Part shown: positions 8,352 to 55,149 of the stretch, piece after piece
Position numbering within the stretch: the first letter of the stretch is position 1
Layout of the letters: each line of letters starts with the position of its first letter
Origin: Flavobacteriales bacterium
Lineage (GTDB): Bacteria > Bacteroidota > Bacteroidia > CAIKAF01
Length of the DNA: 64,000 nt
Reading direction: 5' to 3'
NCBI GenBank assembly: GCA_025451235.1
Contig: JANWKT010000032.1
Coordinates: 1-64,000 of the forward strand
The notes under the pieces: model-generated
What the model was told of the DNA's origin: nothing
Databases searched by the model: none
Seen by the model: the letters and a program-made list of their open reading frames with translations, nothing else
Position numbers and translations under genes: made by a program

Positions 8352-9494
8352 ATGAGTAAAATTTATATGGACAATGCTGCTACCACTCCCATGGATGAAG
8401 AAGTGGTAAATGAAATGGCCAACCTAATGCGAAATAGTTTTGGGAATCCGAGCAGCATTCATGCCTTAGGCCGGGAGGCGAGAACCCATATCGAAAAATC
8501 ACGCAAAAAAATCGCAGAATATTTAAGTTGTTCCCCGGCCGAAATATTTTTTACCAGTGGCGGTACGGAAGCGGATAACATGGCTATTCGGTGTGCTGTA
8601 GAAGATATGGGAGTAAAAAGAATTATTACTACCACCATCGAACATCATGCGGTTTCACATACAGTGGAAGATCTTTGGCATAAGAACAGGATCAGAATAC
8701 AATTCGTAAATGTAAATGTTCAGGGCCATGTTGATGTTCACCATTTAGAAACTTTGTTGCAGGAAGATGATGGACCCACTCTGGTAAGTTTGATGCATGC
8801 CAACAACGAAATCGCTACCATGATCGATCTGTTGACTGTGGGAACCTTGTGCAGAAAATACAATGCTTATTTCCATAGCGATACGGTACAAACCATGGGA
8901 CATTATACAATCAATCTAAAAGAAATTCCCATTGACTTTGTTACCTGCTCAGCTCATAAATTTCATGGGCCTAAAGGGATCGGATTTTTATACATCAACA
9001 GCCATGTAAAGATCAAACCGCTGATTACCGGTGGGTCACAGGAAAGGAATATGAGGGCCGGTACAGAAAATATTTATGGCATTGTGGGATTGGCTAAAGC
9101 GATGGAGGTAGCCTACAGAGATCTGCCAGCACACCAGCAACATATAACTGAGGTAAAAAACTATATGATCAAAAAACTCAGGGAAGAGATCCCAGGTGTT
9201 GACTTTAATGGCGATATTTCTGATAAAAGCTTGTACACCGTGTTGAATGTAAAATTCCCCACCACTCCTGATTCGGAAATGTTTTTGATGAAACTGGATA
9301 TTTTGGGGATTTGCGCTTCCGGAGGTTCAGCCTGCAGTAGCGGAAGCAATGTAGGTTCGCATGTACTGGCGGGGATTAAATGTGCAGGTGATCGACCCAG
9401 CATTCGTTTTTCATTTAGCAAATACAATACAAAGGAGGAAGTGGATAAGGTGGTAAATGTATTGAAGGGGATGTTCGAACCACAAGTAGTTTAA
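8352..9494 (+). CDS. Cysteine desulfurase, IscS/NifS type
   Basis: A 380-residue PLP enzyme that takes sulfur from L-cysteine, leaving alanine and an enzyme persulfide for Fe-S cluster or tRNA thiolation. Seen: N-terminal YMDNAATTPMDEEV, the cofactor-contacting TSGGTEADN (68-76), the PLP lysine K203 in SAHKFHGPKG, and the catalytic cysteine C328 in ASGGSACSSGS, which is the long mobile loop of group I (IscS/NifS) enzymes. A TATTTTTG -7 element at 8322-8329 lies 22 nt before the ATG. It is followed after 6 bp by a YggS-family PLP-handling protein, so the two are likely co-transcribed. No iscU or iscA is adjacent, so I do not give an iscS symbol. Confidence 0.93.
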   Translation: MSKIYMDNAATTPMDEEVVNEMANLMRNSFGNPSSIHALGREARTHIEKSRKKIAEYLSCSPAEIFFTSGGTEADNMAIRCAVEDMGVKRIITTTIEHHAVSHTVEDLWHKNRIRIQFVNVNVQGHVDVHHLETLLQEDDGPTLVSLMHANNEIATMIDLLTVGTLCRKYNAYFHSDTVQTMGHYTINLKEIPIDFVTCSAHKFHGPKGIGFLYINSHVKIKPLITGGSQERNMRAGTENIYGIVGLAKAMEVAYRDLPAHQQHITEVKNYMIKKLREEIPGVDFNGDISDKSLYTVLNVKFPTTPDSEMFLMKLDILGICASGGSACSSGSNVGSHVLAGIKCAGDRPSIRFSFSKYNTKEEVDKVVNVLKGMFEPQVV

Positions 9495-43421: not shown

Positions 43422-43450
43422 TTTAAAATAGTGTTCTCAACTTTTGCCAA

Positions 43451-43481
43451 AAAGCCGGATCGTGATGGGTCCGGCTTTTTA
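43451..43481 (+). terminator. Rho-independent terminator of nrdA
   Basis: Arms AAAGCCGGA (43451-43459) and TCCGGCTTT (43470-43478), then more T. Confidence 0.85.
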
Positions 43482-43628
43482 CACGAAACCAGAAAATAAA
43501 AACGAAATATAAATTCCATTGTCATGTCGACCCGGCCCAAGGTGATACGGCCTGCAGGGAGTGGAGACATCTAAAAGGAATTAATTATATGTAAAATAAT
43601 TTGGCTGCCCTTCGCGCCTTTTGCTTTA

Positions 43629-43746
43629 GTCCCTGCAAGCAGGGCCAAGCAACTCTAAGTTACCGCTGGTATTCCTCTGTTTACTCGCAGCAACCAAGGC
43701 TTGCTAAGCCCTGCTTGCAGGGAGCTATCGCTGCAGTCGCGGGCAG
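43629..43746. repeat. GC-rich palindromic intergenic element, copy 2
   Basis: CCCTGCAAGCAGGG (43631-43644) and CCCTGCTTGCAGGG (43709-43722) are 14-nt inverted copies of each other, each also self-pairing; between them lies CTCTGTTTACTCGCAGCAAC. Ends GGAGCTATCGCTGCAGTCGC, like 13813-13946. The 537-bp gap between nrdA and the first lipoprotein gene holds this, the terminator and the next element. Confidence 0.65.
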
Positions 43747-43768
43747 AATTATAATGAAGTAGAATTTC

Positions 43769-43914
43769 ATTCCTTCGCACCACCGGGTCCCAGCCGAAGC
43801 TGGGAAGACAGCTTAATTTATACAGGGAGCTTCGGCCAAACATTTTGGCCGAAGCTCCCTGCGCCTCAAGAAATGTCATCCCGGCTCCGGCCGGCACCCA
43901 GAGCAACGAAGCAC
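43769..43914. repeat. CCTTCG...CGAAG palindromic element, copy 1
   Basis: Starts TTCCTTCGCACCACCGGGTC, ends CACCCAGAGCAACGAAGCAC. Inside, CAGGGAGCTTCGGCCAAA (43823-43840) and its exact complement (43844-43861) form an 18-bp stem with a 3-nt loop. Same ends as 44332-44482. Confidence 0.75.
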
Positions 43915-43919
43915 AGCAT

Positions 43920-43950
43920 TAGGAAATATGATTCGTAGGGTTTAACTTTG
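43920..43950 (+). promoter_or_regulatory. Lipoprotein-island start module A
   Basis: CATTAGGAAAT with TAG in place of TTG (43920-43922), 20-nt spacer, TAACTTTG (43943-43950); ATG only 8 nt later at 43959. Confidence 0.6.
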
Positions 43951-43958
43951 AAAGAAGG

Positions 43959-44312
43959 ATGAATAAAATACTTTCGATATTAACGGTTGGCCTGGTTACC
44001 TTTCTGGCTTCATGTTCGGATGCAGATATTGTTTCAGGTACCTACCATGGGAAAATATATACGACCGATACCATGGATGCTACCGTAAAAATTTCACCCC
44101 TTACCAATACAACTATAAGGATTGATATTACCAATTCACTCAATCAGTCGTATATGGACATTGCAGAATTAACTAAGAATAATACCGAAGCCTATAATTT
44201 ATTTCATGGAGACCCAATTGGAATGGAGCATGTAACGGGCTTTTATTATGAGGGATTTATTTTTATTAATTCGTACACCCACGGTTATTCCTTTGAAGGA
44301 GAAAGAAATTAG
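43959..44312 (+). CDS. Small lipoprotein, paralog of the gene at 52360
   Basis: A 117-residue protein with a lipoprotein signal (LVTFLASCSD, Cys at residue 19) and a short beta-rich mature part: DADIVSGTYHGKIYTTDTMD, ATVKISPLTN, GFYYEGFIFINSYTHGYSFE. The gene at 52360 encodes a 118-residue homolog with the same layout (VSGSYHGKIYRTDTLDATV, GYYYDGFLHIES). No known family recognised; the pattern is that of a small lipocalin-like or META-like beta sheet (guess). Flanked on both sides by copies of a palindromic element and preceded by a short-leader promoter. Confidence 0.8.
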   Translation: MNKILSILTVGLVTFLASCSDADIVSGTYHGKIYTTDTMDATVKISPLTNTTIRIDITNSLNQSYMDIAELTKNNTEAYNLFHGDPIGMEHVTGFYYEGFIFINSYTHGYSFEGERN

Positions 44313-44331
44313 TTTCTACCCTCATCATTTC

Positions 44332-44482
44332 ACTCCTTCGCGCCTCCGGGTCCCAGCTGAAGCTGGGAATCAGCCAAATTAATATAGCAGTTCTTCGTCC
44401 CGGCTCAGCCGGGACGAAGAACTGCTATATCCCAAAAACGGTTTCCCAGCTACAGCTGGGATCCCGAGCAACGAAGCACGGC
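44332..44482. repeat. CCTTCG...CGAAG palindromic element, copy 2
   Basis: Starts ACTCCTTCGCGCCTCCGGGT, ends TCCCGAGCAACGAAGCAC. Inside, 44382-44405 and 44407-44430 are exact complements: 24-bp arms around a single C, a 49-nt palindrome. Also TCCCAGCTGAAGCTGGGA and TCCCAGCTACAGCTGGGA hairpins. Confidence 0.8.
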
Positions 44483-44487
44483 AGCAT

Positions 44488-44518
44488 TTGGAAATCTAAA
44501 GCCTACCCGTTAACTTTA
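44488..44518 (+). promoter_or_regulatory. Lipoprotein-island start module B
   Basis: TTG (44488-44490) in TTTGGAAAT, 20-nt spacer, TAACTTTA (44511-44518); ATG 14 nt later. Confidence 0.65.
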
Positions 44519-44532
44519 TTAAAAATCCACTT

Positions 44533-45339
44533 ATGAAAAATAGGTATTTGATCTCTTTCATTCTCCTGGTTTTATTTTCTTGTGGAAACAAGAACCTCAA
44601 AAGAGATAAAGAAAACAATGAGTTAAAAGACAGGGTTGAAAAAAACCAGGATACCTCCTTATCCAGAAACGAAAAGATCTTATACGAAAATGTTGCCCTT
44701 CGGTATGGTGAGTTCATCCAATTAAAAAATGGCTATCGCATCCTTCCTGTGGTATTAAAAGAGATCTATGGAGATAAAGGCGAGGAAGGGGAGCGATTAT
44801 CTTCCAATCTGCTGATCATAGATAAAAATAACAACGTAACCACCTTGGATTCCCTGGGCAACTGGTATATTAAAGATATAAAACTGATCAAGTATTGGCC
44901 CAAAGATTCTGATTTTACCGAAGAATCCAATTCTTCATTTGATTATGAATTGGTTCACGATAAATATGTATTCGAGGGATATGTATTGCTTACCTTAGAG
45001 ACCTCTAAAACCAGTGTTTCCAAGGATAATTTGAAAAAAGAATACAATATCAAGCAACAAGCTATAGGAATATTGAATGAAACGGGAGGAAATTTTACCG
45101 TGATGACCCCCAACAATTCCCAGGTAGAGAATATAGTATTGGATGCAAACTCAAATTCCATTTATATCAGTGTGATCACTAATATAAATGCTGATGAGTA
45201 TTATAACGACAAAGATCCCCTCACTTACTATGCGGTTAGCCTCGAAAATGGTAAGATCGTTTCCCGGCCTTTGATATCAAATGAACTGGAAGTAAAGCTA
45301 AAAAAAGAGTACTTGGATAAATTGGATTTTAATCAATAG
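44533..45339 (+). CDS. Lipoprotein of unknown function
   Basis: A 268-residue protein: lipoprotein signal (LISFILLVLFSCGN, Cys at 17), a Lys/Glu-rich linker (20-50), then a folded part with RILPVVLKEIYGDKGEEGER, SLGNWYIKDIKLIKYWPKDS, YVFEGYVLLTLE, AIGILNETGGNFTVMTPNN and NVSIYISVIT-type strands. I recognise no family. It has its own start module and is not obviously in an operon with the genes on either side (74 bp to the next). Codon use looks like the neighbourhood. Confidence 0.75.
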   Translation: MKNRYLISFILLVLFSCGNKNLKRDKENNELKDRVEKNQDTSLSRNEKILYENVALRYGEFIQLKNGYRILPVVLKEIYGDKGEEGERLSSNLLIIDKNNNVTTLDSLGNWYIKDIKLIKYWPKDSDFTEESNSSFDYELVHDKYVFEGYVLLTLETSKTSVSKDNLKKEYNIKQQAIGILNETGGNFTVMTPNNSQVENIVLDANSNSIYISVITNINADEYYNDKDPLTYYAVSLENGKIVSRPLISNELEVKLKKEYLDKLDFNQ

Positions 45340-45374
45340 GGTATTTTTTGCGCTGCATGGAAGGAACCCAGTAT

Positions 45375-45405
45375 TTGGAAATCCACTTCCCAACCCTTAA
45401 CTTTG
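45375..45405 (+). promoter_or_regulatory. Lipoprotein-island start module C
   Basis: TTG (45375-45377) in TTTGGAAAT, 20-nt spacer, perfect TAACTTTG (45398-45405); ATG 7 nt later at 45413. Confidence 0.75.
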
Positions 45406-45412
45406 AAAGAAG

Positions 45413-45883
45413 ATGAAAAAATGGCTTTTTATTATATATCTTCTTTTTTCCAGCCACCTATTTGCCCAGCAAACGAAAACATTGAATGGACGAACGTATC
45501 CCATATCCGACCAGGTCATAGGCCAATTCTATTCGAAACTTGTTACTATGGATGGATCTATAGGAGTCCTTAAAACCTATGCGAAGATTAAGGAAGATTC
45601 TTTGTTCATCACCAACGAATTCTACCAGGCATCCACGCTTTGGAAAGTAGAGTATGCCCGCATAAAAATAGATTCTTTGGTAGGTGAAAGGGAGCCCTGG
45701 TTGGCCGATACCATATTAGCCGAAAATAAAGGGGTCTATGGTCTCATCCTCTATGGGAACGATGGAGCCGGTGTCTACCACCGTTTCTCCGCATTCGAGT
45801 CTTTTGATTATTTATTCCGATCGATCTTGATCTTTTTTGAAAGTAAAAGGTCAGCAAATGATTTTATGAAGAAACTACGTTGA
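45413..45883 (+). CDS. Small secreted protein of unknown function
   Basis: A 156-residue protein with a signal peptide (1-18, ending HLFAQ) and a mature part starting QTKTLNGRTYPISDQVIGQF. It has WKVEYARIKIDSL, YGLILYGNDGAGVYHRFSAF and a basic C-terminal helix (FESKRSANDFMKKLR). No lipobox, so periplasmic or surface. No family recognised. It is preceded by module C and followed after 65 bp by the DUF695 gene, which has its own promoter. Confidence 0.72.
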   Translation: MKKWLFIIYLLFSSHLFAQQTKTLNGRTYPISDQVIGQFYSKLVTMDGSIGVLKTYAKIKEDSLFITNEFYQASTLWKVEYARIKIDSLVGEREPWLADTILAENKGVYGLILYGNDGAGVYHRFSAFESFDYLFRSILIFFESKRSANDFMKKLR

Positions 45884-45898
45884 TGCAGAGCAAACCGT

Positions 45899-45928
45899 TT
45901 GCAAATAAATATCATTTATTTACATTTG
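45899..45928 (+). promoter_or_regulatory. Promoter of the DUF695/RraB gene
   Basis: TTG (45899-45901), 19-nt spacer, perfect TACATTTG (45921-45928). An 11-codon frame starts at once (45930-45965, MNQFKSYGSIK) and overlaps the start of the real gene at 45949. Confidence 0.65.
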
Positions 45929-45948
45929 AATGAACCAATTCAAATCCT

Positions 45949-46689
45949 ATGGCTCTATCAAGTGATCAATGGAATATCTACCATTATGCCTTTGGCGAGA
46001 ACGAAGAATTTATGGCCCTCGTTAGTTTCGACGAAACTGCGGTGGGGAAAGAAAACCAACAAGGTTACCAGCGTTGTATCCGCCTGGTATTCCAGGTGAG
46101 TGATGACCTGGTCTATGAGAACGGATTGATACATGGAAAGGCCAATGAAGCACTCATGTTAGTAGAGAACCAACTCATCCAATTGCTGGAACAAAAACAA
46201 GTGAATTGCCGCTTTGTAGGAAGGCAAACGTATTATGCCCGCAAGGAGTTCGTATTCCAGGTGGAAGATGAACATGCTTTCAGCCATGCGATCAGAGATT
46301 ATATCAGCTCGCTAAAGGAATATCGATTTGAAACGGTTGTTTCGAACGGATGGGATTTCTTTAACCAAAAAATTTCTCCCAACCTTATTGCACGCCAACA
46401 AATCTCCGACAGGACCTTGATCGAAACCCTGAAAGAGAATTCGAATGCCGATAAACCCCATTATTTTGAACACCATTTCAGAGGACCGAAAACCGGATTG
46501 CAATCCATTCAAAAAGAACTGGAAGAGGAAAAATTTGACCTGCTCTCTTTAACCGATGATTCGCTGACCATGGCCAAAAGATATGACCTGGATGAAGATG
46601 TGATCAACCAGACTTCCGAGTTCATGATCCTCATGTCGACGCATTTTAAATGCAGTTATGATGGCTGGGGAGCCGGCACGGAGAATTAG
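45949..46689 (+). CDS. DUF695-RraB two-domain cytosolic protein
   Basis: A 246-residue cytosolic protein. The N-terminal half (about 1-135; WNIYHYAFGENEEFMALVSF, VFQVSDDLVYENGLI, RKEFVFQVEDEHAF) matches the DUF695 family; the C-terminal half (about 160-246; HYFEHHFRGPKTGLQSIQKE, FDLLSLTDDSLTMAKRYDLD, SYDGWGAGTE) matches the RraB fold (regulator of RNase E activity B). This fusion is common in Bacteroidetes. Whether it touches RNA turnover here is unknown. It is the only clearly cytosolic soluble protein of the island. Confidence 0.85.
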   Translation: MALSSDQWNIYHYAFGENEEFMALVSFDETAVGKENQQGYQRCIRLVFQVSDDLVYENGLIHGKANEALMLVENQLIQLLEQKQVNCRFVGRQTYYARKEFVFQVEDEHAFSHAIRDYISSLKEYRFETVVSNGWDFFNQKISPNLIARQQISDRTLIETLKENSNADKPHYFEHHFRGPKTGLQSIQKELEEEKFDLLSLTDDSLTMAKRYDLDEDVINQTSEFMILMSTHFKCSYDGWGAGTEN

Positions 46690-46738
46690 GCCAATAAGAT
46701 ATGTAAAATAATTTTCGGATTTCTTCGTTTCTGTCCGC

Positions 46739-47242
46739 ATGCAGAACAAACAAGTTTCAACCACCGTAGGCTTTATATGTCTCCTATTGATCTTGCTTCC
46801 ATTGGAATATTTTTGTGCCGGCCTGGCTTTTGAAACCCTTGGTGAGCTCTCCTCCGGATTTTACTACTTACTGTTGATCGTTTTGAATATGGTTCCTGTT
46901 GTTTTGTTCATTTTCAAGAAAAGAACGGCTGGATTTGTTCTGGTATTTCTGATTGGATTATTGATCATTCCCTGGCAGCTAAAACTGGGCTATCGTCTTC
47001 TGCTGTTAAAAGAAGAATCCGCCAATATGGTGAATTTCGCGTATGAATATCAATTAGAACATGGGAGTTTCCCTAAAGATGTATCGGAATATACTTTCAA
47101 GTACGAAGGGCTAAAAAAACATCTGCATTATTACTACAGTGAACATGACAGAAGTTTCCAGGTGACCTATTGGGTGGGAACAAGAACTACTTCTCATTTT
47201 TATAGACCAGAGATCGACAAATGGTGTTATTACCCGGACTAA
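46739..47242 (+). CDS. Membrane protein with pilin-like extracytoplasmic tail
   Basis: A 167-residue protein with three hydrophobic helices (about 9-30, 40-60, 65-90) and an outside C-terminal part: AYEYQLEHGSFPKDVSEYTF, KHLHYYYSEHDRSFQVTYWV, FYRPEIDKWCYYPD. The 'EHGSFPKDVSEY' stretch and the end resemble the variable part of type II pseudopilin-like proteins, where an elderly 'NGKYP..L..L' turn follows a long helix (weak analogy). No family named. No clear promoter. It is convergent with the next gene (5 bp between stops). Confidence 0.7.
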   Translation: MQNKQVSTTVGFICLLLILLPLEYFCAGLAFETLGELSSGFYYLLLIVLNMVPVVLFIFKKRTAGFVLVFLIGLLIIPWQLKLGYRLLLLKEESANMVNFAYEYQLEHGSFPKDVSEYTFKYEGLKKHLHYYYSEHDRSFQVTYWVGTRTTSHFYRPEIDKWCYYPD

Positions 47243-47247
47243 GCATA

Positions 47248-48048
47248 TTAACGAGAATACCATTTAAACGCATCTACCCTCCAGTAAATACCTTCAGTGA
47301 GAGGGGTAATGGTAACCACTTCCTGCAATAATCCATTGGATCCATCTCCTTTACCCTTTGCATAATGGTAGCTGGCGATAGAGGATAACCGATTCGATCC
47401 CTGTTTTCCTTCATGATCATTGTACACGCTATAGGTAAGTTTTTGCTTCAACTTACCATTATAATCGTCATATATATATACTTTCAATTCGTCACTGTAA
47501 AAACTTCCCGGGGAAGTACGGATAGAATCCAGTTGAGTTCCGGTATAATAAAAAAGGCTTTCTTTGTTTCCTCTGCCGGGGAAATAGGATGCTTGGTATA
47601 ACAATTGGCCCTGAAGGTTATATTTTTTTGCTAACCGGATACGCTTATCCTCAAAGAAACGATGGTATAAACGTATTTCGGATGAGTCAATCACCATACT
47701 GTCATCCGTTGCTATCCATGTGGAAGGATTTTGGGCAAGGGGTTGGTAAACTGAAAAGATCATTGAGTCTTTTTTGGGTCCATTTTGTTCTGCATATACA
47801 AATCCTGAATCATTCACCAGGTAGGTGATCAAGATCCGCATATTACTTAACTCCTTGTTTTTTTCCCGCTTTTCATCATGTGAACCAATGGAATAATAAG
47901 AGGAGGTAACTTCAAAGGCTTTTACTTTGTATTCCTTCATCAATGCAGGATCCATTTCTATATATCCTATAGGAAAAATGTTATAAAGTTGAGCATTCAG
48001 GGCTAAAGAATAAAAAAACAGTAAAAAAAGGAGGAGGTGTCTTTTCAC
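47248..48048 (-). CDS. Secreted protein of unknown function
   Basis: A 266-residue protein with a signal peptide (1-19, ending LALNAQ) and a mature part with Tyr-rich strands: LYNIFPIGYIEMDPALMKEY, RLAKKYNLQGQLLYQASYFP, GRGNKESLFYYTGTQLDSIR, KVYIYDDYNGKLKQKLTYSV. The 'Y..G.L....Y' periodicity is reminiscent of MORN or RHS-like hairpin repeats but too few copies are present to be sure. No T9SS tail. It is one of the minus-strand genes in an otherwise mostly plus-strand island. Confidence 0.72.
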   Translation of the reverse strand: MKRHLLLFLLFFYSLALNAQLYNIFPIGYIEMDPALMKEYKVKAFEVTSSYYSIGSHDEKREKNKELSNMRILITYLVNDSGFVYAEQNGPKKDSMIFSVYQPLAQNPSTWIATDDSMVIDSSEIRLYHRFFEDKRIRLAKKYNLQGQLLYQASYFPGRGNKESLFYYTGTQLDSIRTSPGSFYSDELKVYIYDDYNGKLKQKLTYSVYNDHEGKQGSNRLSSIASYHYAKGKGDGSNGLLQEVVTITPLTEGIYWRVDAFKWYSR

Positions 48049-48114
48049 GGATAGAGTTTAGATAAATATAACGGAGAAATTGCCTAAATTGTATATGTCC
48101 TTATCAGGAATATT

Positions 48115-48144
48115 TTGGAAGTGTCATGGGCAACCTTAACTTTG
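48115..48144 (+). promoter_or_regulatory. Lipoprotein-island start module D
   Basis: TTG (48115-48117) in TTTTGGAAGT, 19-nt spacer, TAACTTTG (48137-48144); ATG 6 nt later at 48151. Confidence 0.7.
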
Positions 48145-48150
48145 AGGTAG

Positions 48151-48783
48151 ATGAAAAAATACATATGTATATTCATGCTGGGTATTACCTGGTCATGCGG
48201 TGGTGGAAACCGTACGGAAGTGTTGAATACTGAAAATCCCCAGGAAAAGTTAGAGCCGGTTTTTAGGCTTGAAAAATTCAAATCAAAGTTTAAGCAAGGG
48301 CATGTTCGCCAGTTAGGATTAGAGGAATTAGAGAAGTATGGAGATGTTCATTTTCCTGACCTATTCGATACGCTTACGGCTGCCGAAAGATTTCAGGTAT
48401 TTCAAGACTCCTTTTACTTAGAAAACCAGATTTCAGAATACACTTTCTTTTCTATTCAAAGGTCTATGGATCCGGTAACTATTCTGATGACCAGAAAAGA
48501 TGAATTATGTGGTGGTAACGAAATTTTTGTTGTTACTTATGTAAAGGGAAAACTCATCGATCAGGCCACTATCTTCCAATCAGGAGGGCTTGGATGCAAA
48601 TTTATTTACCAGATGACCTCCACTTTTCTGAATGATTCGCTTATAGAATGCCATGCAGAAAAAACATATAATGATTTCTCAGGGGAAATGCAATTCTCGG
48701 TAGAAGATACCGATACAAAGCTTTTGATAAAACACAATGGTGTGATAGAAACATTGTTCTCAGAGACTGATTATGCTCCCTGA
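48151..48783 (+). CDS. Lipoprotein of unknown function
   Basis: A 210-residue protein with a short lipoprotein signal (ICIFMLGITWSCGG, Cys at 16). The mature part has a charged helix (EKFKSKFKQGHVRQLGLEEL-like region, about 43-62) and a beta-rich half: TFFSIQRSMDPVTILMTRKD, IFVVTYVKGKLIDQATIFQS, GLGCKFIYQMTSTFLNDSL, MQFSVEDTDTKLLIKHNG. No family recognised. Expressed from its own short-leader promoter; divergent from the secreted protein gene on the minus strand (102 bp). Confidence 0.75.
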   Translation: MKKYICIFMLGITWSCGGGNRTEVLNTENPQEKLEPVFRLEKFKSKFKQGHVRQLGLEELEKYGDVHFPDLFDTLTAAERFQVFQDSFYLENQISEYTFFSIQRSMDPVTILMTRKDELCGGNEIFVVTYVKGKLIDQATIFQSGGLGCKFIYQMTSTFLNDSLIECHAEKTYNDFSGEMQFSVEDTDTKLLIKHNGVIETLFSETDYAP

Positions 48784-48838
48784 TCAAAAGAGTTATAGAT
48801 TATCTTTATTTCTTACAAGTACTTTAGCCGCAATAGGA

Positions 48839-49210
48839 TCATCCTGCAATCAATCCAGGTGTTTTATAATAATAACCGGCACTGATGGCTGCAATGAGTA
48901 GGACCACAATGATCCAGAAAAAGACTCCCATAATGAGGAAAGTACTGCTCCCTTCTTCTCTTTTTTTGAAAGGAATTAAAGCAAATACAAAGGATGAAAA
49001 GAAGACAGCCACCAATACCAATGGGACCCAAGCAATACCCCATGCTGTTGGCCCAAAAGGGTTGATCCATAGCTGACCTGCCCAGGTAGCCAGGAAAACG
49101 ATCAGGAAAAATAACCACAATCCTTTCAGGGGTCTTTTAGACAAAGCTGCAAGTGCCCAGGTAATGACCATGGTGACCAATAAAGCAGCAAATATGATAT
49201 AATAATTCAT
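48839..49210 (-). CDS. Small four-helix membrane protein
   Basis: A 123-residue protein with four hydrophobic helices (about 2-22, 30-48, 59-80, 93-113) and short loops; no cytoplasmic or periplasmic domain of note. Landmarks are MNYYIIFAALLVTMVITWAL, PLKGLWLFFLIVFLATWAGQ and NPFGPTAWGIAWVPLVLVAV. An upstream in-frame ATG at 49279 would add 23 residues of non-helical, Cys-containing sequence, so I prefer 49210. Family not recognised; the pattern is that of small conserved membrane proteins of unknown function in Bacteroidetes. Confidence 0.72.
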   Translation of the reverse strand: MNYYIIFAALLVTMVITWALAALSKRPLKGLWLFFLIVFLATWAGQLWINPFGPTAWGIAWVPLVLVAVFFSSFVFALIPFKKREEGSSTFLIMGVFFWIIVVLLIAAISAGYYYKTPGLIAG

Positions 49211-49427
49211 TGGATGAATTTTACATGTATTCATACTAAATCCTTGCCATTCAACGACACAGAATAAGGGGAGAAACACACAAAAGTGGAACGGATGGGT
49301 TTACAGAGGTAAATGACGGTGATTAAAATCCATGGAAGTTGGTGGGATGGATGTGGGCAAAAGAACTATTCTCATTTTGTGAGCTTTTCTCTCAAATAGC
49401 AAAAAAATCACTCCCGAAAAGTTTATT

Positions 49428-50666
49428 TTATTTCTTGATCTTATTTTTTAATTTCCTTTCGAACAAAGTATGTAAGGGGAAGACAAGAATGGCCAACAAG
49501 GTATTCATTCCGAGTTTATAAACTGGAATTCCATGGGTAAATCCATCCACATACGGATCGGTAAGTACCAGTAAAAATTCGAAAAGGATCAATACGGAAA
49601 CGAATATAAATCCCTCAGCCAGGTAATGTGACACTTTCACAAAACCCAACAAGGCAGTAATGCCAAAAGCCAGCAATATGGCTATAAATATCATGGAATG
49701 TTGAAGTCCATTTCTCCTTTCGATCCTTTGCTTTTCCAATCTTGTTTTGTTGGCTTCTTCTTGTTCTTTAAAGATCCTGTCTTTTTCGAAATCAAATTGA
49801 ACCTCTCTTCGGATCACTGTTTTTCGGTTCTCATCGTTTTCTATGCTGTCTTTCATAAATGCATAGCGTTTGTACAATTTTACCGAAAGCAAGCCGTCCC
49901 CCTTTCTTTCGTAAGCCAATGAAAGAAGGTGTGAAGAATGTTTGATCAATTCAGGATATCCAAGTTGTTCGGATATACGATAAGATTCCTCCAGATAGGT
50001 AACCGCTTCCCGGTTATTATTTTGTTGTATATAGTATTCTCCCAGGTTGCAAGTTGCTTCGGCAATCCCTTTGGGTTGCTTGGCCTCCCTTAATTTCTTT
50101 AATCCATCCTGGTAATAGGTCAATGCTTTTGGAAATTGCTGGAGTTGAAAGTATACATGTCCGATAGCCACCGAAATATTGCCCAACCTATTGATGTCCT
50201 TTATTTCGCGACTTAGCTGCCGGCTTTGCAAATAATAGTTCAATGCCTTCTCATATTTTTTTTGTACTTCCATGATCCTTCCTATGCTTTGAAGTGTTTG
50301 AGCCATGGCAGTTTTATCGTTCAGCTGCTTGTAGATGTTCAACGCCTTTACGAAGTATCCCAGGGATTTATCATAATTCTTTTGCTCAAAATAGATCTCA
50401 GCAATATGGGCCATTGACCATGACATGGCTTCCAGGTTCCCTATATTTTCTGATATATGCTGGCTGGTATATAGCAACGTATAGGCTTCCTTGGGGTCAT
50501 ACTTGTATATTTCCTTCATCAAAGAGTGTGGAATAGCCATTTTTAAAGTGCTACCTTCCCCTTTATTAGACACAAAAAGCATCGAATCTTTTTTACCAGA
50601 ATTTTGAGAAAAGGTGAACAGGGGTAAGGCCATCAGAAACAGCAGCAGGTAATTTTTTTTCATCAC
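49428..50666 (-). CDS. TPR-repeat membrane protein without an output domain
   Basis: A 412-residue protein: signal peptide (1-20, ending LFTFSQ); about five tetratricopeptide repeats (about 55-265; AHIAEIYFEQKNYDKSLGYF, LQSIGRIMEVQKKYEKALNY, VAIGHVYFQLQQFPKALTYY, CNLGEYYIQQNNNREAVTYL); a charged coiled coil (about 275-318); and three membrane helices (about 322-342, 350-368, 380-398) before a basic end. In many Bacteroidetes such periplasmic TPR sensors continue into a histidine kinase or a LuxR/LytTR DNA-binding domain; here the chain ends after the helices, so no output domain is present. Confidence 0.82.
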   Translation of the reverse strand: MMKKNYLLLFLMALPLFTFSQNSGKKDSMLFVSNKGEGSTLKMAIPHSLMKEIYKYDPKEAYTLLYTSQHISENIGNLEAMSWSMAHIAEIYFEQKNYDKSLGYFVKALNIYKQLNDKTAMAQTLQSIGRIMEVQKKYEKALNYYLQSRQLSREIKDINRLGNISVAIGHVYFQLQQFPKALTYYQDGLKKLREAKQPKGIAEATCNLGEYYIQQNNNREAVTYLEESYRISEQLGYPELIKHSSHLLSLAYERKGDGLLSVKLYKRYAFMKDSIENDENRKTVIRREVQFDFEKDRIFKEQEEANKTRLEKQRIERRNGLQHSMIFIAILLAFGITALLGFVKVSHYLAEGFIFVSVLILFEFLLVLTDPYVDGFTHGIPVYKLGMNTLLAILVFPLHTLFERKLKNKIKK

Positions 50667-50767
50667 AGTTGTTAAGTACCACTAAAATAAGAAAATAAAT
50701 GGAACCTGCATCGATACTGGAGCGGTAATTGCTAGGAACATACAAGAATCTTAAAGTAGATCATCTT

Positions 50768-51373
50768 ATGAATTATATTTTTCACTTCAGGCTAAGGATG
50801 ATCCTACTGGTATTGTTCGGGTTGATTTTTATAACAGCATGTAAGAAAGAGAAACCCCAAACACCGTTAAAAACGGAACCCGATCTTTCAACACTGATCG
50901 ACTCTACTGCTTTCGGGGATATTAAATTCGGAATTTGCAGAAACGATTTTTTGAAGAAAATGGGAGAAGAACCTGTACAAAATCAAATGAGCGAACCGGT
51001 TTTTGATGGTACCATTACCGAGGTGGAAAATACAGTTGATATCGGTTCATACCAGTTCAAGGGATACTATTATTTTGATCAGGATGATAGCCTATATAAA
51101 GTGCATTTAAGCAAATACTTCAAGAATAAATACCCAAGGGATGATTATCATTCGGCTTATGATAGTATTTATAATCCAATGAAGATCAAATATGGATATG
51201 GAGTGAAGGAGAAAACCATAGAGACGCAAAAAATTATTTCCTGGAGTTTAAAGAATAAACGTATCAGACTGGAGAATCTCTGCTATCAGCAGGATTGTAT
51301 TATAGAATGTTCTATTATCGAAACCCGGCTTTATGAAAAGAATAAAATAAGAGCGCAGGCGGTATCCCAATAG
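50768..51373 (+). CDS. Lipoprotein of unknown function
   Basis: A 201-residue protein with a lipoprotein signal (MILLVLFGLIFITACKK) preceded by ten residues (MNYIFHFRLR); M11 at 50798 may be the true start. The mature part contains DSTAFGDIKFGICRNDFLKK, a pattern typical of small proteins where 'FGDIKFG' opens a beta hairpin, then YQFKGYYYFDQDDSLYKVHL and KIISWSLKNKRIRLENLCYQ. Four Cys lie near the end. No family named. An 8-bp hairpin CTCATTTT/AAAATGAG follows at 51406-51425. Confidence 0.74.
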   Translation: MNYIFHFRLRMILLVLFGLIFITACKKEKPQTPLKTEPDLSTLIDSTAFGDIKFGICRNDFLKKMGEEPVQNQMSEPVFDGTITEVENTVDIGSYQFKGYYYFDQDDSLYKVHLSKYFKNKYPRDDYHSAYDSIYNPMKIKYGYGVKEKTIETQKIISWSLKNKRIRLENLCYQQDCIIECSIIETRLYEKNKIRAQAVSQ

Positions 51374-51548
51374 TGGTCGAATCCTCTCATTTTTTCTTCT
51401 TTTTTCTCATTTTGAAAAAAATGAGCAGGATGTTTCTCTGAGCCTGGTTTTACCGAAACAGCTGTATATACGAGCATAACCAACGGATTTGTCTTTGGGG
51501 CATATTCTTTGGGACTGCTTTTAGCAGAAAATGATATAAATACTGGTT

Positions 51549-52310
51549 ATGAAAAGATTAGCTGTTTTATATATAGGAATAATCCTCGTTTATTTAACCG
51601 GATGTTCTCCTGTGTACTATATCCCAAACACACAAAATGTTCCATTGCTAAGTCATGAAGGGGAGTACAATATTGGAGTATCAGGTAATCCGGCGATGAT
51701 GGAGTTGCAAGGGTCTGTTTCACCTGTTAATCACCTAGGTTTTCAGTTGAATGGGACTTGGTATATACCTCAATTTATGGATAATGGAGATAGGGCAAGA
51801 GGCTATTTGATTGATGGAGGTGCCGGATACTATAAAGCTTTTGGGTTTGACAATAAATTTGTTTTCGAAACCTATGCGATAGGTGGGATAGGTCATGTAT
51901 TCAATGGTTTTATGTACAGGGATAGTTTGACCACTGGAGGAACGATTTCTTCAGGTGTGGGTAGATATGGCGTGCAGCCGGTGATAGGTTTTAAATCGAA
52001 GTATATCGATGTGGCCATTTCCTCGAGGTTTGTGGGTCTTTCTTATTTCAACAGTTCTGGAGATCTGGTTTTTGATGGTGTTAGACAGGTGGATTATTTG
52101 AACGACCATCAACATCATTTTTTGATCGAGCCGGCTTTTACTTTTAGGGTGGGATCAGATTTCTTTAAATTTCAATTTCAAGCGAGGGGAAGTTTTAATA
52201 CCACTTTCCCCCAGTTCTATCAAAACAATTCGATGTTTAGCGTAGGTATTGTGTTGAGCCCGAACAGGTACGAGAACATTTTTAAAAAACAAGTACCTCA
52301 GGTAGAGTGA
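51549..52310 (+). CDS. Outer-membrane beta-barrel lipoprotein
   Basis: A 253-residue protein with a lipoprotein signal (IILVYLTGCSP, Cys at 19) followed by YYIPNTQNVPLLSHEGEYNI and regularly spaced amphipathic strands (NHLGFQLNGTWYI, GYLIDGGAGYYKAFG, FVFETYAIGGIGHVFNGF, GVQPVIGFKSKYIDVAISSR, FLIEPAFTFRVGSDFFKFQF, MFSVGIVLSPNRYENIF). This looks like an eight-stranded outer-membrane barrel with a lipidated N-terminus, a known Bacteroidetes arrangement of unknown role. No clear promoter box of the island type was found upstream. Confidence 0.78.
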   Translation: MKRLAVLYIGIILVYLTGCSPVYYIPNTQNVPLLSHEGEYNIGVSGNPAMMELQGSVSPVNHLGFQLNGTWYIPQFMDNGDRARGYLIDGGAGYYKAFGFDNKFVFETYAIGGIGHVFNGFMYRDSLTTGGTISSGVGRYGVQPVIGFKSKYIDVAISSRFVGLSYFNSSGDLVFDGVRQVDYLNDHQHHFLIEPAFTFRVGSDFFKFQFQARGSFNTTFPQFYQNNSMFSVGIVLSPNRYENIFKKQVPQVE

Positions 52311-52322
52311 TGAGGACGTGAT

Positions 52323-52353
52323 TTGGAAATAAAATGGAGTTAACTTACATTTG
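52323..52353 (+). promoter_or_regulatory. Lipoprotein-island start module E
   Basis: TTG (52323-52325) in TTTGGAAAT, 20-nt spacer, perfect TACATTTG (52346-52353); the ATG at 52360 is 6 nt away, so the mRNA is likely leaderless. Confidence 0.7.
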
Positions 52354-52359
52354 TACTCC

Positions 52360-52716
52360 ATGAAATTACATCCTATCCTAGCCGTTTTATTCCTGGCCAT
52401 GCTTTTTTTATTCTCGTGTACAGATGCTGAAATTGTATCAGGATCATACCATGGAAAAATATACCGAACGGATACATTGGATGCAACGGTGAATGTGGTG
52501 GAGTTGGGGGATTATTATATAAGCATAGAAGTGAGGTATGCTCCTAATGCCGCTTTTATTGAACATGCCAAGTTGGTTAAAAACAATGCCAATGCTTATA
52601 ACCTCGTCCTCTCGAATTCAACAGGTGGATATATTTTAACCGGGTATTATTACGACGGATTTCTACACATAGAATCCTGGAACAATAACTATATTTTTGA
52701 AGGACAACAAGACTAG
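52360..52716 (+). CDS. Small lipoprotein, paralog of the gene at 43959
   Basis: A 118-residue lipoprotein (signal AMLFLFSCTD, Cys about 21). The mature part DAEIVSGSYHGKIYRTDTLD, ATVNVVELGDYYISIEV, LTGYYYDGFLHIES and NNYIFEG repeats the layout of the product of 43959-44312, 8.4 kb upstream, including the start of the mature chain, the KIYxTDTxDATV segment and the GYYYDGF turn. A TTG at 52351 would give three extra residues but lies inside the -7 box, so ATG 52360 is the start. It is convergent with the LamG protein gene (7 bp). Confidence 0.8.
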   Translation: MKLHPILAVLFLAMLFLFSCTDAEIVSGSYHGKIYRTDTLDATVNVVELGDYYISIEVRYAPNAAFIEHAKLVKNNANAYNLVLSNSTGGYILTGYYYDGFLHIESWNNNYIFEGQQD

Positions 52717-52723
52717 GTCATGT

Positions 52724-54556
52724 TTATTTTTTCAAGATTCTTTTAACCGACCTTGAACCATTTACAGTTGCATAAACGAAGTAAATACCCGCCGGATAAG
52801 TATATAAGGAAATGGTGGCCAGTTGATCTTTTTCCAGGTTGAAAGATAGAAGTATCTCACCATATATATTTACCAACCGAATATTTTCTATGCTTTCGGA
52901 ATAGTTGGTTTGGATATGAATAATATCATCTGTTGGATTCGGATAAATATTCCATACCATTTCACCTGAAGCATCCATGCCAAAAGTATTCACATTATAA
53001 CATGCAGAAGTATCTGTACATCCATTTTGGGTCACTTGCACAGCATAATCTCCATTCATGGTAGTATTAAAAACGGCATTGGTTTCGCCAGGGATGATAG
53101 CAAAATTATTATTGCAATCAAGCCATTGATAAGTAGCTCCTGATGCACTTGATGTAAGCACATTCCCCGTTTGAATAACAGCTGTATTTGCATTGTTGAT
53201 GGTTAAGTTAAGTGTGATGATACTGTCACAACCATTGATCGTGCCCAGTGTATCATAATAGGTGCCTGAAGTGGTAAGTAAAACACTGTTGAATAAATAT
53301 TCATTACAGGCTGTTGGAGAAATAACTGTTGATGCTGATTGATGAATGGTGAGATTTAAAGTAATCAAGCTGTCGCAACCATTGATGGTGTTGAGTGTAT
53401 CATAATAGGTGCCTGATGAGGTAAGTAAAACACTATTGAATAGATATTGATCGCAGGCTGTTTGAGGGATAACGGTGGATTGCGTATTATGGATAGTTAG
53501 ATTTAAGGTGACGATACTATCACATCCGGATGCACTGCTTAAAGTATCCTCATAGATTCCCGAGGAGGTGAGCAATGTGCTGTTGAACATGTACTGGTCG
53601 CAAGCCGTAACACTGAAGTTGGTACCTGAGCTGTTATTAACGGTAAGGTTTAAGGTAACAACACTGTCGCATCCACCCATAGAAAGAAGGGTGTCGGAAT
53701 GGATGCCAGTAATGGTATAAGGTTGGCTTCCAATAAATGCAGTATCCCCCTGACAAATGGTACTGGAACTGGATGAACTGAACGTAGTATTGGGACCTAC
53801 TTGGTTGATCACTGCCCCTGAAGCGATCCAGTTAGAAGTCCCACCTGAAAGTGCAAAATTGTTGAGGGTTCCATTGTAGGTTGCATTGATATCAGGTAAG
53901 GTGGTAACGCCTGGGTTTGATCCTGAAGCGATCCCTTGGTTGAAGTTATAGTATGCTACCAGGTTTGGAACCGGAGCGGTAAATTCGGCATTCATATTCG
54001 ACATGATCTGGCATTGGGTCCTTGCCTCACTCCAAACCCTCACTTCATCTAATGAGCCAGTAAAGTATTGGAAACCACCGGGGCGGGTTCCTATGGTCAT
54101 CAACCCACTGGTTCCGGAGGATGAACCTCCTCCGGCGGCACTGGCTTGTAATACTCCATTGAAAAACACTTGCGGGGTTAATGTGGAGGATGTCCAGCGA
54201 GCTGCCACATGGGTCCATTGGTTAGTAGGGATTGAAGCGCTGGTGACAACACTATAGGTGGTACCACCTGCGATTACATAAAAGTATATGACATTACCGA
54301 TACCCGTGCCCATCGTGGCGAAGTTGGCGGTACTCGGCTGGGCAAAAATAATTCTTTGAAAGGCACTAGCACTTGGATATACCCATGCTTCAAAAGTAAA
54401 ATCGTTTGCCGCGAGGGTATTAAATAATGGGGGGACGGTAGCGGAGACGACCATATCGTTGGCCCCATCAAAGTTCAAAGCATTCCCTGGAGATTGTAAA
54501 TGAGCCTGAAATATGAAGGTGAGCATGATAGCAATAAAAGCGATTGTTTTTTGCAT
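52724..54556 (-). CDS. LamG-domain secreted protein with internal repeats and T9SS type A tail
   Basis: A 610-residue surface protein: signal peptide (1-20, ending IFQAHL), a LamG/concanavalin-like domain (about 22-205; ALNFDGANDMVV, WTHVAARWTSS, GSLDEVRVWSEARTQCQI, LVAYYNFNQG), then four repeats of about 48 residues of the form 'C..Y.FNS.LLTSSG.Y.DTL....GCDS..TLNLT' (about 260-465), a Cys-containing spacer, and a T9SS type A tail (WNIYPNPTDDIIHIQTN, VNIYGEILLSFNLEK, YPAGIYFVYATVNGSRSVKR). LamG domains often bind carbohydrates or proteins. The DNA of the repeats (about 53180-53760) is partly conserved, so they arose by recent duplication. Confidence 0.9.
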   Translation of the reverse strand: MQKTIAFIAIMLTFIFQAHLQSPGNALNFDGANDMVVSATVPPLFNTLAANDFTFEAWVYPSASAFQRIIFAQPSTANFATMGTGIGNVIYFYVIAGGTTYSVVTSASIPTNQWTHVAARWTSSTLTPQVFFNGVLQASAAGGGSSSGTSGLMTIGTRPGGFQYFTGSLDEVRVWSEARTQCQIMSNMNAEFTAPVPNLVAYYNFNQGIASGSNPGVTTLPDINATYNGTLNNFALSGGTSNWIASGAVINQVGPNTTFSSSSSSTICQGDTAFIGSQPYTITGIHSDTLLSMGGCDSVVTLNLTVNNSSGTNFSVTACDQYMFNSTLLTSSGIYEDTLSSASGCDSIVTLNLTIHNTQSTVIPQTACDQYLFNSVLLTSSGTYYDTLNTINGCDSLITLNLTIHQSASTVISPTACNEYLFNSVLLTTSGTYYDTLGTINGCDSIITLNLTINNANTAVIQTGNVLTSSASGATYQWLDCNNNFAIIPGETNAVFNTTMNGDYAVQVTQNGCTDTSACYNVNTFGMDASGEMVWNIYPNPTDDIIHIQTNYSESIENIRLVNIYGEILLSFNLEKDQLATISLYTYPAGIYFVYATVNGSRSVKRILKK

Positions 54557-54637
54557 GGGGCATATTTATAGCTACTAAGATATAAAACTAAATTTAATAT
54601 GCAGGCCCCGACTAAAATATTTACAAAAGGGAATTGT

Positions 54638-54668
54638 TTGGAAATCAAATAAGGTTAGATTAACTTTA
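54638..54668 (+). promoter_or_regulatory. Lipoprotein-island start module F
   Basis: TTG (54638-54640) in TTTGGAAAT, 20-nt spacer, TAACTTTA (54661-54668); ATG 7 nt later at 54676. Confidence 0.7.
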
Positions 54669-54675
54669 TCAGAAG

Positions 54676-55149
54676 ATGAAAAAGTATGCCGTTTTTATAA
54701 TTCTTCTTTTCTTTTCATGTGGAACTTCGGATAAAAAGAAACCCTATCCGACCATTACTCAATCAACGGAGGTAAATGAGTTAGGGAAGTTTTTAGATTT
54801 TACCCAATTCAAACCCACAGATGTTTCGTTTAGGTACACGTATTATGATAACTCGGGGCAGAATGACCGATCTGTTCCAGGACCTTCGGATCATTATATG
54901 CAGGCATTGATGTTTTTTGATTCTTTGACTTTTAAAAACATCTTGCTGAACGCCCAGGTGGAATCATCCAACCATCCTATTCCCAATTACCAAAAAGAAG
55001 AATTTAATTTCGACTGGCTGGATAGGGAGATCAAAAATGAATTGATGAGAAGTGATACAAGTTACCACGGACATCATGATTTGTATTTTGGTAGCGGAGG
55101 GCAGTTATGGCTAATGGATAAAAAGATATTGTTATACGATGGATCGTAG
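54676..55149 (+). CDS. Lipoprotein of unknown function
   Basis: A 157-residue protein with a lipoprotein signal (VFIILLFFSCGTS, Cys at 14). The mature part includes NELGKFLDFTQFKPTDVSFR, YTYYDNSGQNDRSVPGPSDH and the C-terminal HHDLYFGSGGQLWLMDKKIL, with no recognised domain. Short-leader promoter as in five other genes of the island. It is the last small gene before the giant secreted protein. Confidence 0.75.
   Translation: MKKYAVFIILLFFSCGTSDKKKPYPTITQSTEVNELGKFLDFTQFKPTDVSFRYTYYDNSGQNDRSVPGPSDHYMQALMFFDSLTFKNILLNAQVESSNHPIPNYQKEEFNFDWLDREIKNELMRSDTSYHGHHDLYFGSGGQLWLMDKKILLYDGS

Follow-up and report, generated by a model that had tools for sequence, protein, structure and literature searches.

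The sigma-ABfr promoter of Bacteroidota consists of a TTTG box at -33 and a TAnnTTTG box at -7. In F. johnsoniae the -7 box reads TAHHTTTG, transcription starts 4–5 nt downstream of it and the DNA near -28 is AT-rich (PMC6847099). Gene sets under ECF sigma factors (SM6, F. psychrophilum) share a promoter with a GGAA-type upstream box ahead of secreted-protein genes (PMC9723704). A literature search for a lipoprotein set with a shared promoter returned no papers. The six genes described here, A–F, resemble both systems in part. As in the ECF-sigma sets, a GGAA-type box belongs to a promoter shared by genes for secreted proteins, but the -7 box matches the primary-sigma type, with no CGT box (PMC9723704). 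The match to the sigma-ABfr promoter extends to both boxes and their spacing, although the -7 boxes of B and F end in A; in contrast to that promoter the modules add a fixed GAAAT after TTTG and favor TAAC, and this sub-type is limited to one locus.

The analysed window comprises positions 1–64000 of the 65119-nt contig C32, part of a genome of 4.28 Mb in 46 contigs. Modules A–F all lie on the plus strand and follow a common plan: TTTGGAAAT, 14 nt (13 in D), TTAACTTTG or TTACATTTG, and 6–14 nt to the ATG. Module A (43919..43950, TTAGGAAAT-N14-TTAACTTTG) ends 8 nt ahead of the ATG of gene A (43959..44312, plus strand as all six genes), which encodes a 117-aa lipoprotein paralogous to E. Module B (44487..44518, TTTGGAAAT-N14-TTAACTTTA) is followed after 14 nt by gene B (44533..45339) for a 268-aa lipoprotein without a Pfam family, and module C (45374..45405, TTTGGAAAT-N14-TTAACTTTG) after 7 nt by gene C (45413..45883) for a 156-aa protein. 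The distance is 6 nt both for module D (48114..48144, TTTGGAAGT-N13-TTAACTTTG), which precedes the gene of a 210-aa lipoprotein missing in the sister genome (48151..48783), and for module E (52322..52353, TTTGGAAAT-N14-TTACATTTG), which precedes that of a 118-aa lipoprotein predicted as a small beta barrel (52360..52716). Module F (54637..54668, TTTGGAAAT-N14-TTAACTTTA) lies 7 nt ahead of gene F (54676..55149) for a 157-aa lipoprotein whose homologues elsewhere lack the module. A seventh, looser copy (45898..45928, plus strand, TTTGCAAAT-N13-TTACATTTG) is located 20 nt before the ATG at 45949, a normal start distance; a single protein with both a DUF695 and an RraB domain is encoded in the stretch 45898-46689. 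The initial annotation had placed the six modules at 43920, 44488, 45375, 48115, 52323 and 54638, and all were recovered with numbering one base lower. Its spacer of about 16 nt is corrected to 14 nt, or 13 in D, and the -7 box of module E at the common spacing is TTACATTTG, not the TTAACTTA directly before it. The -7 boxes of A–F read TAACTTTG, TAACTTTA or TACATTTG and correspond to TAHHTTTG, with A instead of G as last base in B and F. TTTG and TA are 23–24 nt apart in B–F; module A has TTAG instead of TTTG. All boxes contain TAACTTT or TACATTT, and a CGT-type -10 box is absent from A–F.

Five of the six proteins, A, B, D, E and F, read as lipoproteins, whereas C has a signal peptide and no evident lipobox, a correction to the initial annotation. 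None of the six proteins gave a Pfam family above the cut-off, and a PADLOC search returned no matches. A and E, with 44% protein identity, are the sole homologous pair. The beta barrel of E is predicted with good confidence and its lipocalin-like matches are weak; the model of F is of low confidence (pLDDT 60) and was left out of the argument. Between E and F a Laminin-G/ConA-like protein (PF13385) with a type IX secretion sorting tail (PF18962) is encoded on the minus strand at 52724-54556, without a module. From ~55190 an open frame of great length continues past the end of the window; its product, which has a signal peptide and is repetitive in composition, is probably a large secreted protein.

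We compared the module with other promoters of the same genome, using 2.5 Mb as background for promoter statistics and the whole genome for pattern searches. TAnnTTTG occurs within 60 nt of the start in 126 of 637 genes, versus 34 in the next 60 nt. Averaged across genes the -33 box is hardly visible, likewise in F. johnsoniae (PMC6847099). The tRNA promoters do show -33 boxes (TTTGTATTT, TTTGGAATT, TTTGGGATT, TTTGTAAGT, TTTGCAAAA and TTTGCAGGA), which are TTTGnAAnT-like and located 22–24 nt ahead of TAnnTTTG, as in the modules. Since box and spacing are similar, the module approaches the complete promoter of genes for which strong expression is expected; judged by sequence, it is the ordinary primary-sigma promoter of Bacteroidota in near-consensus form. 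The strength we predict for A–F draws on this likeness to about six tRNA promoters. The tRNA promoters differ from the modules in the base after TTTG, which is T, G or C, and in the TAAC form of the -7 box, found in one of six; TAAC is present in five of the six island modules versus 5% of other promoters. The initial annotation had regarded the extra bases as going beyond the general promoter. This applies to the G at the fifth position, the A at the eighth and TAAC, but not to the TTTGnAAnT-like box as such, which tRNA promoters also have. Because these three features exceed the general promoter, co-regulation is plausible.

The motif is concentrated at this locus. TTTGGAAAT-N13..18-TTAACTTT matches the 4.28-Mb genome at three places, each of them within the island, and TTTGGAART-N10..22-TTAACTT at five, four of them in the island. 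The looser TTTGNAART-N13-15-TAHHTTTR matches 11 sites genome-wide, six of which fall in the ~10–11 kb of the island, or 0.24% of the genome (Poisson P ~4e-15). Reversed-pattern controls for the first and the third search gave no match. The five looser matches elsewhere comprise the promoter of a tRNA-Arg, an operon that includes an HTH_34 regulator, a gene for a MarR-like regulator (a label we read from the sequence), a site in a coding frame and one more. Twelve shuffled motif pairs never scored above 16/18 in 2.5 Mb, compared with 17–18 for five island sites and 16 for one. As the search patterns were derived from the window itself, we added an all-against-all comparison independent of the motif, covering 677 promoters with a -7 box in 2.5 Mb at 18 positions. 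All 15 pairs among A–F scored at least 15/18, versus 0.48% of 228,811 other pairs. Other neighboring promoters reached this score in 9 of 1547 pairs, of which two include the seventh site of the island, at 45898, and a second comparable clique was not present among the 677. Pattern searches and promoter comparison thus agree that the six promoters are a real group restricted to one locus. Frequent occurrence ahead of household genes had been named as an observation that would speak against such a group; in the genome-wide search the motif was not common there. Among 197 relatives, five contain the exact site, once each, which is comparable to the reversed-pattern control and gives no sign of wider conservation.

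The initial annotation had judged the leaders of the six genes too short for a normal ribosome site. We found a bimodal distribution of TAnnTTTG-to-ATG distances: 89 of the 384 within 40 nt (23%, an approximate share since starts are the first in-frame ATGs of a simple ORF caller) lie at 3–9 nt, followed by a dip at 10–15 nt and a broad hump at 16–30 nt. The short leader therefore represents a general class in this genome, in which the island is enriched with five of six modules. With start sites 4–5 nt past the box, as in F. johnsoniae, mRNAs of the 3–9 nt class would have no leader or almost none. This near-leaderless class would include modules A, C, D, E and F, with the -7 box 3–9 nt before the ATG as in leaderless or very-short-leader mRNAs of Bacteroidota, and B would have a leader of ~10 nt. 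The bimodality is sharp across the 2.5 Mb examined, and the near-leaderless share exceeds the RNA-seq values of mapped Bacteroidota, although the methods differ: in B. thetaiotaomicron leaders shorter than 10 nt were measured at about 3.7% (PMC7366714), in F. psychrophilum leaderless mRNAs at 5.5% (PMC9723704) and in F. johnsoniae leaders of at most 10 nt at ~13% (PMC6847099), whereas our 23% is predicted.

To assess gene turnover we used contig C169 (L181) of the only other listed genome of the genus, which is 77% complete. It keeps nrdA (94% identical) and the backbone genes at 46739..47242 (plus strand, 68% identity), 48839..49279 (minus strand, 69%) and, in its first part, 51549..52310 (plus strand, 59% over the 37 aa available before the contig ends); in the window these three have no module. 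A, B, C, the gene at 45949, D and the genes at 47248, 49428 and 50768 are missing; the contig stops before E and F. In place of the missing genes C169 has a putAbiC-domain gene, its companion and two other genes. The interval 43422-51549 downstream of nrdA is a hotspot of gene turnover, in which the backbone is kept and accessory genes are swapped. Not all accessory genes of our locus have the module: it is absent from those at 47248, 49428, 50768 and 52724. In the sister genome TTTGGA-N15..19-TTAACTTT has two matches, one of which lies in the same interval before an accessory secreted-protein gene (P ~0.002). As this promoter agrees with the full module at only 14/18 positions, it is supportive and not a proof.

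We then considered how six genes could come to share this promoter. It is probable, in our view, that A–F are unusually complete primary-sigma promoters which are held by selection and co-express accessory secreted proteins. That strong promoters of the general type happen to cluster here by chance is hardly credible: the module is indeed built from general promoter parts, but six of 11 genome-wide sites within 0.24% of the genome and the lack of another such clique among 677 promoters argue against it. Copying of one promoter-gene cassette within the island, with genes diverging or being replaced afterwards, was suggested by the initial annotation and fits with the paralogy of A and E and with ~170 nt of upstream sequence common to A and B that extend up to the -33 box. 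We regard it as very doubtful. Mean identity among A–F is 93% in the -33 and 87% in the -7 elements, but 34% in the spacers and 27% in the 30 nt upstream, with random pairs at 26%; recent copying, which would have brought the spacers with it, is therefore unlikely. B, C, D and F are unrelated in sequence, and the start-region DNA encoding the signal peptides is no more alike than among 668 other signal-peptide-like genes, and a cassette of shared promoter and signal peptide was rejected on this ground. Inheritance of the promoter with a gene family was rejected as well, since the module is missing in F homologues of Thermonema, Ohtaekwangia and one MAG, and an A/E relative on contig C7 also lacks it. 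Longer upstream similarity is confined to the A/B pair (43764..43927 and 44327..44495, both plus strand, 71% over 171 nt) and mostly consists of a dispersed palindromic repeat; other copies of this repeat are without TTTGGAAAT, so that it is not the carrier of the module. The repeat has a CCCAGC..GCTGGG core and was observed at 43764-43914 and 44327-44479, in L036 at ~8938-9082 and, in the sister genome, at the same locus (L181, ~2700-2800).

A dedicated transcription factor that binds the ATTTGGAAAT box, an imperfect ATTT-GG-AAAT dyad over the -33 region, and switches A–F on and off together would account for a uniformity that exceeds the general promoter, is limited to one locus and is not seen in tRNA promoters, as well as for the constant spacing. 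We nevertheless consider such a factor rather unlikely. Neither sigma, anti-sigma nor other regulator domains were found by Pfam among the island proteins scanned. That an alternative sigma factor reads the motif was dismissed, since the -7 box belongs to the primary-sigma type and no sigma gene was found in the island. The closest match outside the island lies ahead of the operon with the HTH_34 regulator on contig C8, which led to the idea of an autoregulated regulator sharing its own operator. The sister copy of this promoter, TTTGCACGT...TTTAACTTTG...CAAAGTA, keeps spacer and -7 box but not GGAA, which weakens the case for this operon as regulator of A–F. Both species have a CTTTG-N-CAAAG dyad over the -7 box of the HTH_34 promoter (L067 948-898, minus strand; G001:C70:18743-18701), a possible autoregulatory operator. 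The initial proposal of a co-regulated set of surface proteins is borne out in its shared, set-specific cis-element; for a dedicated regulator, no gene was found among the island proteins scanned and the HTH_34 candidate is not supported by the sister genome.

If A–F are unusually complete primary-sigma promoters, each module would have TTTG from about -36 to -33, then a G and, from about -31 to -28, AAAT; 14 nt of spacer would separate these from the -7 box, TAACTTTG or TACATTTG. Transcription would start 4–5 nt past the -7 box and yield leaders of ~1–4 nt, or ~10 nt for B. The six genes, located in a rapidly changing stretch past nrdA, would be strongly transcribed and co-expressed as a set encoding accessory proteins of the surface or the periplasm. 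The sub-type would owe its persistence to selection, either on one promoter of old common origin or repeatedly for this same form, and not to spread by recent copying. Strength alone fails to explain why the sub-type is limited to one locus, and other strong promoters vary; either common ancestry or a common regulator has to contribute as well. The two live answers to this puzzle are an old common origin maintained by constraint and a regulator not found so far.

The bimodal distances suggest that this lineage may use near-leaderless mRNAs more often than the few Bacteroidota mapped so far. The locus could also possess a promoter sub-type peculiar to it, which a specific factor reads and unrelated incoming genes come to carry. 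This is an unlikely scenario in our estimation; if true, a turnover hotspot would place successive genes for small secreted proteins under one resident code that is kept across species. The finding prompts the question how newly acquired genes obtain matching promoters. Genomes of Bacteroidota are rich in orphan lipoproteins, and a locus-specific promoter sub-type could group such accessory genes into expression sets.
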